Positions 4,100-5,189 of a stretch of 10,415 nt of DNA are shown here, one piece after another (position 1 is the first letter of the stretch; each line of letters starts with the position of its first letter). The position numbers and the translations under genes were made by a program. Below the pieces are notes generated by a model, which ran no database searches, was not told the origin of the DNA, and worked only from the letters and a program-made list of their open reading frames with translations. This DNA comes from Eubacteriales bacterium (GTDB lineage: Bacteria; Bacillota; Clostridia; Peptostreptococcales; Anaerovoracaceae). The stretch is taken from the NCBI GenBank assembly GCA_028691625.1, contig JAQUYZ010000028.1:1-10415 (forward strand), read 5' to 3'.

Positions 4100-4128
4100 T
4101 TGCATTTTCCCACTACTTCAGTTATTAT
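4100..4128 (+). promoter_or_regulatory. Probable promoter of tRNA-Gly
   Basis: TTGCAT (4100-4105) and TATTAT (4123-4128) are separated by 17 bases, and transcription would start about 26 bases before the mature tRNA 5' end. The -10 is one base off consensus; the -35 keeps only the TTG. Confidence 0.6.
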
Positions 4129-4160
4129 TAAGAACAGCAGGTTCAGCACCCAGAACACCT

Positions 4161-4234
4161 GCGGGTGTAGTTCAATGGCAGAACACCAGCTTCCCAAGCT
4201 GGATACGGGGGTCCGATTCCCCTCACCCGCTCCA
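4161..4234 (+). tRNA. tRNA-Gly (anticodon CCC)
   Basis: A full cloverleaf can be drawn. The acceptor stem is GCGGGTG (4161-4167) with CACCCGC (4224-4230). The D arm is GTTC/GAAC with loop AATGGCA. The anticodon arm is CCAGC/GCTGG with loop TTCCCAA, giving anticodon CCC at 4193-4195, which reads GGG glycine codons. The T stem is GGGGG/CCCCT with one G-T pair. The discriminator is T4231 and CCA is encoded at 4232-4234. One oddity is the T loop TCCGATT: the second position (tRNA position 55, normally T and converted to pseudouridine) is C. The G18-G19 pair of the D loop is kept. A terminator starts two bases after the CCA. Confidence 0.95.
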
Positions 4235-4411
4235 ACAAAAAAAGAAATGTCCCACAGGGGCATTTCTTTTTTTGTCTATATTGTGAGGGGAATCGGACCC
4301 GAAAGGGCATCGAGCGTTAAAAAAACCATTGTGAATGGTTTTTAGCGAGATGGTCCGAGCCCTGTACATGGGCGAGGACGGCAGATGCGAGCGCCGGCGA
4401 AGCAGCTGAAA
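4216..4411 (+). repeat. Tandem tRNA-tail repeat, copy 1 (196 bp)
   Basis: This is the first of two tandem copies of a structured unit. It begins inside the T arm of tRNA-Gly (ATTCCCCTCACCCGCTCCAA) and contains, in order: the tRNA 3' end with CCA, the tRNA terminator hairpin, an exact inverted copy of the tRNA T arm (GTGAGGGGAATCGGACCC, 4283-4300, complementary to 4209-4226), an A7/T5-flanked hairpin CCATT-gtg-AATGG (4326-4338), GGTCCG (4352-4357, complementary to CGGACC at 4294-4299), a GCCC/GGGC hairpin (4359-4373), and a GC-rich tail rich in short palindromes (4374-4408). The next direct copy of the tRNA 3' end begins at 4412. The layout suggests a non-coding mobile or recombining element linked to the tRNA 3' end. 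Open frames through it are a result of its length, not evidence for a protein. Confidence 0.9.
4237..4273 (+). terminator. Rho-independent terminator of tRNA-Gly (repeat copy 1)
   Basis: A stem of A7 GAAATGTCCC with GGGGCATTTC T7 (one G-T pair) encloses the loop ACA and ends in seven T. The A7/T7 arms make it equally able to work on the minus strand. It sits just after the encoded CCA of the tRNA. Confidence 0.93.
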
Positions 4412-4606
4412 ATTCCCCTCACCCGCTCCAACAAAAAAGAAATGTCCCACAGGGGCATTTCTTTTTTTGTCTATATTGTGAGGGGAATCGGACCCGAAAG
4501 GGCATCGAGCGTTAAAAAAACCATTGTGAATGGTTTTTAGCGAGATGGTCCGAGCCCTGTGCATGGGCGAGGACGGCAGATGCGAGCGCCGGCGAAGCAG
4601 CTGCAA
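4412..4606 (+). repeat. Tandem tRNA-tail repeat, copy 2 (195 bp)
   Basis: This is the second copy of the unit, directly abutting the first. I count three differences from copy 1: six instead of seven A in the run after the tRNA tail (4433-4438), G for A at 4561 in the loop of the GCCC/GGGC hairpin, and C for A at 4604. It starts with a copy of the tRNA 3' tail including CCA (4412-4430) but has no tRNA 5' half before it, so it encodes no tRNA. Such near identity indicates a recent duplication or ongoing homogenisation. Confidence 0.9.
4433..4468 (+). terminator. Second copy of the tRNA terminator hairpin
   Basis: This is the same hairpin as at 4237-4273 with one A fewer in the 5' arm, within repeat copy 2. 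No gene needs it here, so it is probably carried along as part of the repeat. It would stop any read-through from the tRNA before the gdx promoter. Confidence 0.8.
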
Positions 4607-4620
4607 ATTCCCCTCACCCG
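4607..4620 (+). repeat. Truncated third copy of the tRNA tail
   Basis: ATTCCCCTCACCCG repeats the first 14 bases of the unit once more and then stops; unique sequence resumes at 4621. This marks the right boundary of the repeat array and cuts the tRNA tail before TCCA. The inverted segment 4478-4488 (GTGAGGGGAAT) pairs with it exactly, so it also closes the outer stem of copy 2. Confidence 0.85.
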
Positions 4621-4637
4621 GAGAAAACCCGTTGCGT

Positions 4638-4666
4638 TTGACTTGGCCACAAAATTATGTTATATT
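4638..4666 (+). promoter_or_regulatory. Strong sigma-A promoter of the riboswitch-gdx transcript
   Basis: TTGACT (4638-4643) and TATATT (4661-4666) are separated by exactly 17 bases, one mismatch each from consensus. Transcription would start near 4673, shortly before the riboswitch. It lies just right of the repeat array, so the array does not interrupt the control region. Confidence 0.8.
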
Positions 4667-4694
4667 TAATGCACCAATTAAATAAAAAATGAGT

Positions 4695-4793
4695 TTTATA
4701 GGGTTCCGCAGCTGTAATCCGCAGCCGGTCTGGTCCAAGATAAAACCTACAGTTGAAGAGCTGTAAACACGGAAGGACAAAAGCCTGGGAGAT
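4695..4793 (+). ncRNA. Guanidine-I riboswitch (ykkC class)
   Basis: This leader RNA binds guanidinium and raises expression of the exporter gene behind it. Conserved ykkC blocks occur in the right order: GGGTTCCG (4701-4708), CTGGTCCAAGA (4730-4740), a P3-type hairpin ACAGTT-GAAG-AGCTGT (4749-4764), ACACGG (4767-4772) and AAAAGCCTGGGAGA (4779-4792). The base after GGTCC is A where the usual consensus is G. The last conserved block is also the 5' arm of the terminator, the standard design in which ligand binding holds this strand and prevents termination. The gene downstream is the expected Gdx-type SMR transporter, which supports the class assignment. Confidence 0.94.
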
Positions 4794-4868: not shown

Positions 4869-5189
4869 ATGAATTGGATTTTGTTATTGGTAGCAGGTGG
4901 TTTTGAAGTATTTTGGGCATTCGAGTTAAAGAATTCTCTCGGATTTACAAAATTGATCCCCAGTGTGCTGACAATTTTGGGTATGATTGCAAGCTTTTAC
5001 TTTCTGGCGTTGGCCTTGAGAAGCCTCCCGTTAGGTACCGCATATGCGATCTGGACCGGAATCGGTACTGTTGGCACTGTAATTTTAGGCATGTTCCTGT
5101 TAAACGAACCAATAAGTGCAGGCAGAATCATTTTTATCTCGTTGATTGTAACAGGGATAATCGGGTTGAAAATAACATCTTCTCATTAA
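4869..5189 (+). CDS. gdx: Guanidinium exporter Gdx (SugE-type small multidrug resistance protein)
   Basis: This 106-residue inner-membrane protein has four hydrophobic helices and is expected to act as an antiparallel dual-topology homodimer exporting guanidinium in exchange for protons. The signature residues of the Gdx subtype are present: GGFEVFWAFELK at 10-21 with the essential E13 and W16, S42 in helix 2, and GTAYAIWTGIG at 56-66 with Y59 and W62. The C-terminus GIIGLKITSSH also matches SugE/Gdx proteins. AAGGAGG at 4852-4858 precedes the ATG. It is a single gene without a second SMR partner, as expected for Gdx, and sits directly behind a guanidine-I riboswitch. Export of guanidinium is inferred from family and riboswitch together. 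Confidence 0.95.
   Translation: MNWILLLVAGGFEVFWAFELKNSLGFTKLIPSVLTILGMIASFYFLALALRSLPLGTAYAIWTGIGTVGTVILGMFLLNEPISAGRIIFISLIVTGIIGLKITSSH

Follow-up and report, generated by a model that had tools for sequence, protein, structure and literature searches.

A glycine tRNA gene in a clostridial genome is followed by two tandem units of a repeat which we consider, with a probability of roughly 60%, to be the clostridial branch of the tRNA-linked repeats (TLRs), that is, a mobile or concerted, gene-free element that would be transcribed by read-through. The core of the element is roughly 100-120 nt long; its structure is conserved, and the plus strand gives the best reading. An antisense arm and a sense tail match their own upstream tRNA better than other tRNAs, and different tRNA genes have related cores between arms that stay local. 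The element is an RNA family outside Rfam with strong covariation.

Results

Two tandem units behind a glycine tRNA gene

The window (the whole stretch of DNA that was analysed, 10,415 nt) contains the following features at this locus, all on the plus strand:

4161..4234, +, host gene tRNA-Gly(CCC), with T-loop TCCGATT and C at position 55
4235..4275, +, first terminator (T1), a hairpin with T-run, seen as an inverted repeat
4283..4300, +, antisense T-arm ('guide') of unit 1, complement of tRNA positions 51-68
4301..4412, +, structured core of unit 1 (model match, covariation, fold), ending just 5' of the tail
4413..4430, +, sense copy in unit 1 of tRNA positions 59-76, CCA included (sequence, boundary test)
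4431..4470, +, second terminator copy, within the repeat (repeat analysis)
4478..4495, +, antisense T-arm of unit 2 (inverted repeat)
4496..4607, +, structured core of unit 2 (repeat analysis, model match)
4608..4620, +, truncated tail copy at the right end, tRNA positions 59-71 (sequence)

The initial annotation had described two units of 196 and 195 bp that differ at three places, a third copy of the tRNA tail only 14 nt long and an 18-bp inverted copy of the tRNA, and all of these were recovered. The units span 4216-4411 (196 bp) and 4412-4606 (195 bp) and differ by an A-run that is shorter by one A, by TACAT/TGCAT and by CTGAAAA/CTGCAAA; repeat analysis returned 188 nt at a spacing of 195 with 99% identity and 27 nt at a spacing of 196 with 100% identity. 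The third piece lies at 4607-4620, and no terminator was seen after the truncated tail at 4608..4620. The inverted copy (4209-4226 against 4283-4300) is perfect over 18 bp, corresponds to positions 51-68 in tRNA numbering and recurs at 4478-4495 in unit 2. Given that the same layout was found at other tRNA genes, with an antisense arm that fits each local tRNA, the inverted copy is beyond chance. The repeated tail begins at 4217, which is tRNA position 59, and base 58 can be assigned to neither side, since every one of the 105 unique tRNAs compared has A there. The core of unit 1 consists of a GAAA loop and the 3' strand of hairpin P2, followed by P3, P4 and P5. The plus strand of the unit folds at -63.7 kcal/mol (z -4.4), with none of 200 shuffles equally good, and the fold of the minus strand was weaker, with 6 of 200 shuffles as good.

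Directly 3' of the array is a guanidine-I riboswitch (4687-4793, 86.5 bits), followed by a gene that by eye is of the small multidrug-resistance exporter type (4869-5189). A tRNA-Gly(CCC) with C55 in its T-loop was seen in three species of the genus (the window, G008 and G006; loci L003 and L005). Position 55 is T in 102/105 of the compared tRNAs, and the antisense arm has a G that matches C55. The related genome G003, which is free of the element at its tRNA-Gly locus, has the usual T at this position.

A structured RNA family in Clostridia

A covariance model with 37 pairs (R1) was built from 31 copies of the element and matches the window at 4291-4420 and 4486-4615. Both sides changed in 26/37 pairs, and the covariation score was 0.485 compared with 0.147 after shuffling and at most 0.097 after sliding. 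The pair cells included 21 G-U and 5 A-C, which favours the plus strand, and several positions had non-standard pairs (G-A or A-G) that are Watson-Crick in other copies. A structured RNA had been one of the readings offered from the sequence at the outset, with a lack of covariation in the stems named as evidence against it, and both the covariation and the fold (beyond all 200 shuffles) uphold that reading.

Replication slippage and template switching could produce repeats of a tRNA end without any selected RNA. Tandem units that are nearly identical and arrays that end in truncated units (L003 and L036) are what such passive duplication would leave, and it may be the source of array growth; as a full account it is contradicted by the covariation and by a core that is common across the class, and we find it exceedingly improbable. 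The earlier statements that the unit has no gene of its own and that it grows in tandem are both supported.

R1 carriers were at least 155 of 296 genomes of the family, at least 49 of 341 of the class and at least 5 of 299 of the phylum; these three samples overlap, the window's own genome is counted in each, and the strict filters of the searches, with no more than 10 or 11 candidates scored in any genome, make all carrier and copy numbers lower bounds. The window's own genome has at least 6 matches. By DNA search, 10 of 61 near genomes had a match, as did 13 of 297 from the order (own genome counted), and a pattern scan limited to a single genome per species yielded 48 stretches, of which 12 were named Emergencia, Aminicella, Anaerovorax, Sinanaerobacter, Clostridium aminobutyricum or Family XIII and the remainder under broader names. 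The wide clostridial family that had been proposed in the initial annotation is supported. The spurious minus-strand proteins mentioned with it did not appear, as a protein search gave one candidate and none at E 0.001.

With the 4227 families of Rfam at gathering score, only the tRNA and guanidine-I were found in the window and the element was unmatched; 20 related loci gave only tRNA and tmRNA, and when 4100-4660 of the window was searched with E up to 10 the tRNA alone was above threshold. A distant-mode search of plasmids and phages gave zero matches. Viral contigs gave a single match (L168, IMG/VR), in which the element lies near the contig end behind a 3' tRNA fragment (by eye) and probably belongs to host sequence next to a prophage boundary. 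One element was found on a contig titled Parabacteroides (L081); in the core tree it was placed among clostridial copies, so this contig may be misbinned.

Linkage to tRNA and tmRNA genes

Over 113 loci R1 gave 142 matches, 92 of which followed a tRNA or tmRNA gene on the same strand at a distance of no more than 90 nt, and with 28 further matches the count became 110/170. Overlapping loci cover some places twice, which applies to three of the 170 and to two of the 110; three L180 matches were removed as duplicates of L053, and L121 (duplicate of L097) and two L189 matches (duplicates of L014) were kept among the 170. The 60 matches that had no tRNA within 90 nt were later array members, contig ends or orphans, and some of the orphans (L016 and L060) have only a 3' tRNA fragment upstream. 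Copies without any link to tRNA 3' ends had been named beforehand as evidence against a tRNA-associated element; a linkage was found instead. Host genes include tRNAs for Arg, Gly, Thr, Glu, Ser, Leu, Ala, Lys, Pro and Val as well as tmRNA.

The number of units per locus was three at L053 and five at L033, where the five scored units lie behind tRNA-Gly, mostly 184 bp apart and partly N-masked. Inside or beside the elements of L013 and L014, from two species of the genus, another short repeat was seen (GGCACCTACC...GGTTAGGTGC), possibly a second structured repeat.

The antisense arm and the tail follow the local gene

The antisense arm corresponds to tRNA positions 51 to about 65 and the sense tail starts at exactly 59. 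The fit of the antisense arm to its own tRNA was compared with that to permuted tRNAs, a comparison that ignores common descent, at 105 unique loci obtained by merging identical pairs of antisense arm and arm from 110 (an earlier, smaller set was 88 merged to 84, after removal of 4 unusable loci). The largest difference was at position 59 (96% own, 27% permuted). The corresponding values were 97% and 79% at position 60, 99% and 88% at 62, 93% and 80% at 63 and 64% and 37% at 64; further towards the 5' side of the T-arm they were 91% and 74% at position 57, 96% and 91% at 55, 100% and 89% at 52 and 100% and 86% at 51, and at positions 49-50 the fit was nowhere above permuted. Given that positions 51, 52, 55 and 57 are absent from the tail copy, the antisense arm fits the full upstream tRNA.

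The antisense arm closes two helices, P1 with the tail (59 to 64) and P2 with a short sense copy of 51-53. Pairing of the antisense arm with the tail at 59-64 was above every permutation at the variable positions. The 3' strand of P2 matched sense 51-53 of its own tRNA in 98% compared with 83% for permuted tRNAs, and among loci with an unusual 51-53 the strand fitted in 12/13. The proposal to check whether the inverted segment always matches the local T arm thus had a divided outcome: the own tRNA is clearly preferred, as position 59 shows, but position 58 fits only 90% although the tRNA base is A in 105/105, and at L018 and L033 the antisense arm has the G expected for C55 while their tRNAs have T55. 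A very long inverted repeat was seen by eye at L185 (tRNA-Arg CCT, genome G201), with an antisense copy from 51 to one base beyond CCA and one mismatch; this may be a fresh copy.

The right tail matched its own tRNA at position 59 in 95% compared with 28% for permuted tRNAs, and positions 51-58 were at chance. A right copy (at least 7/9 identical at 59-67) was present in 79/92 loci, the boundary test leaving out the 13/92 that had no readable right copy or T-loop, and identity jumped at 59. The last base of the core was A in 69/78.

Such an exact 58|59 boundary would be expected if a cassette of tail, terminator, antisense arm and core entered the T-loop through a recombinase, its folded strand standing in for the T-arm in the way that attC imitates a site in double-stranded DNA. 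Integron attC cassettes are tandem units with a fixed boundary and a folded end whose stem uses bases of the next unit. The clostridial units resemble them in being tandem, in their fixed boundary and in a folded end that includes bases of the next unit; they differ in having no gene cargo, no integrase seen, a conserved RNA-like core and arms specific for the host gene. Terminators that differ between the tandem units of one array (L053/L180) also fit with a cassette, as do three species of one genus (L104, L107 and L112) in which terminator, antisense arm and core are alike and the sequence differs right after the tail, except that L104 and L107 have the next downstream gene in common, so that this last difference may be local decay. 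Among the one longest downstream ORF per locus at 22 loci none was integrase-like by eye, units of about 150-200 bp have no room for an integrase gene, and a protein recognizing a fixed sequence would not explain the tracking of the tRNA at 51, 55 and 57. We consider this cassette reading unlikely, and no integrase-type target duplication was demonstrated at the junctions, where the initial annotation had noted a resemblance to one.

Terminators before and after the element

Where the gap between the tRNA and the element was 40 nt or longer, 89/98 loci had a terminator in it, compared with a rate of 0.007 in shuffled sequences; where the gap was shorter, 1/12 had one. A second terminator followed in 38/60 cases after a full-length tail and in 3/11 after a truncated tail.

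Related cores occur at different tRNA genes

A tree was made from 67 cores, in which many forks are poorly resolved. tRNA type changed 34 times on this tree (61 rows, 11 states; shuffled mean 44, minimum 38), which indicated both that cores switch tRNA type often and, given the clustering relative to shuffled, that spread is vertical in part. Genus changed 13 times (40 rows, 7 states; shuffled mean 24, minimum 20) and genome 17 times (26 rows), hardly below shuffled (mean 20.5, minimum 17). The cores thus carry lineage and tRNA signals together with frequent changes of tRNA type. In genome G201 the tRNA-Gly and tmRNA copies form one group of six rows (support 83) while their arms differ, a grouping that is only suggestive of core sharing, and some tRNA-Thr(TGT) operon copies from two genera group in four rows (support 93).

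For an empty site at the Gly locus, 10 loci were fetched, 5 of which had tRNA-Gly and one of which (G003) was empty, with an orthologous tRNA-Gly next to a peptidase gene 84% identical to that at the window's locus. No insertion event was caught at this locus, the G003 orthologue being too diverged to tell a native from an added terminator.

These data also bear on the possibility of a regulatory small RNA that is kept by host selection, with arms that track the tRNA for the folding of P1 and cores homogenised by gene conversion. The strong covariation, the second terminator after 38 of the 60 full tails and the grouping of the tRNA-Thr(TGT) operon copies across two genera all agree with such an RNA, and there is a precedent in E. 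coli, where, according to the available text of PMC8144298, RrA, RrB and RrF are proposed to be regulatory RNAs acting with CsrA and Hfq. Against it are the patchy distribution even within the family and the element-free orthologous locus in G003, the many tRNA types and tmRNA that serve as hosts, and the tracking at 51, 55 and 57, which P1 would not need. We regard a host-selected RNA as possible though rather unlikely.

A retroelement would join the core RNA to a tRNA transcript at position 59 and be reverse transcribed, leaving the 18-nt tail as a duplication. The tail has this length and start, and retroviral primer sites are likewise 18 nt long. The direct repeat of some single copies continues through the terminator, at L145 as far as the antisense arm, which would also agree with reverse transcription, and the reverse transcriptase family RVT_1 was present in 7/10 of the multi-copy genomes tested. 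It was absent from G201, G463 and G312, which are multi-copy all the same (at least 6, 7 and 4 R1 matches, respectively), and the absence from 3/10 lowered the standing of this route. RT-bearing genomes among element carriers were 28/47, against the at least 155/296 overall. A stop of the reverse transcriptase at m1A58 was also lowered as a candidate: RVT_1 was missing from three genomes as stated and PF08704, the family of the m1A58 methylase that could cause such a stop, gave no match when 9 genomes of the genus were searched (weak matches in 6/21 genomes overall). We judge the retroelement quite unlikely.

Relation to the tRNA-linked repeats of E. coli

The closest known kind of element is the E. 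coli TLR, which the initial annotation had missed, and the window element is a clostridial TLR variant outside the E. coli sequence family. TLRs were first described in 1978, and the original descriptions are reportedly those of Egan and Landy in 1978 and Rudd in 1999. The available text of a 2021 paper counts 22 TLRs in ten E. coli loci, with between one and five at each locus; 18-19 bp at their 3' ends are the same as in the tRNA or rRNA gene that precedes them, and in three rrn operons they lie between two terminators (PMC8144298). In the same text rrA/B/F are transcribed and processed, three sRNAs of the TLR kind located after 5S rRNA arise by read-through of T1, and the function of TLRs is called unknown save for the paper's own proposal for three (PMC8144298). 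Like the E. coli TLRs (the tyrT 178-bp repeats/rttR, rrA, rrB and rrF), the clostridial element is located downstream of tRNA genes, carries at its end a copy identical to the 3' end of the upstream gene within the 18-19 bp of the E. coli repeats and occurs as one to five units per locus, two in the window. Clostridial copies are also found behind tmRNA, unlike E. coli TLRs, and the cores differ: on tyrT, R1 left the TLR unrecognised (E 0.88), and on rrnB its match (E 0.038) was out of register by eye.

The E. coli regions examined were tyrT, eight other tRNA regions and the end of rrnB. The repeat script found 12 units that had no intervening tRNA in 4/9 tRNA regions (L194, L197, L201 and L203) and zero units in the other five. 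An antisense copy of the unit's own tRNA positions 59-68 was present in 8/12 units with 9 or 10 of 10 nt (3 Tyr, 1 Arg and 4 Lys), with 0-2 of 200 shuffles as good. Two Arg units matched weakly (7 and 8 of 10), and two further Lys units (lysV and lysQ), which matched at 7/10, show by eye an antisense T-arm (50-60) with a sense copy after it. The clostridial antisense arm as a rule extends over 51-58 as well. The available text of the TLR paper contains no mention of an antisense copy of the tRNA end (PMC8144298). The rrnB T1-T2 terminator region (L195 850-1065) contains the 5S-linked repeat rrB, for which the same text reports a read-through RNA (PMC8144298).

Discussion

The proposal of a mobile, tRNA-dependent element held in so far as related cores are located at different tRNA genes; how the elements spread and function we infer from such patterns, and gene conversion between copies could mimic movement. 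For a clostridial branch of the TLRs, RNA polymerase would read through the first terminator and transcribe the element, in a manner comparable to that of the E. coli sRNAs, and the transcript would end at the second terminator where present. The element would behave as a gene-free repeat, mobile or concerted. On arrival at another tRNA gene, its antisense arm may arise across 58|59 by copying of the T-arm or by selection for pairing with it, and the tail and terminator would be duplicated so that the tRNA remains intact.

Group I introns have an internal guide sequence that spans an exon junction by P1 plus P10, and the clostridial antisense strand similarly covers both sides of 58|59, with the polarity of P1 and P10. 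It differs in that the Rfam scans gave no group I match and the upstream tRNA is intact, so that there is no need for splicing. A guide function could be imagined in another form, in which the RNA or its single-stranded DNA pairs across the T-arm at 58|59, gives up its own P1 and P2 partners in favour of the tRNA strand and in this way becomes copied or inserted at genes for tRNA and tmRNA. The E. coli TLRs and the clostridial elements would in that case belong to a single class of RNA elements in bacteria, free of genes and directed by guides that are rewritten whenever a new gene is reached. This bolder proposal we consider doubtful. REP/BIME and MITE sequences are, like the clostridial element, short, non-coding, present in many copies and devoid of their own enzyme; they are not known to carry sense and antisense copies of their own adjacent gene.

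The element is thus a clostridial counterpart of the E. coli TLRs, present class-wide and with a well-supported RNA fold. It comes with a rule that is open to testing, namely that the antisense arm and the tail track the local gene and the core does not, and named isolates (e.g. Emergencia timonensis) would provide a setting for questions of element movement and tRNA maturation.
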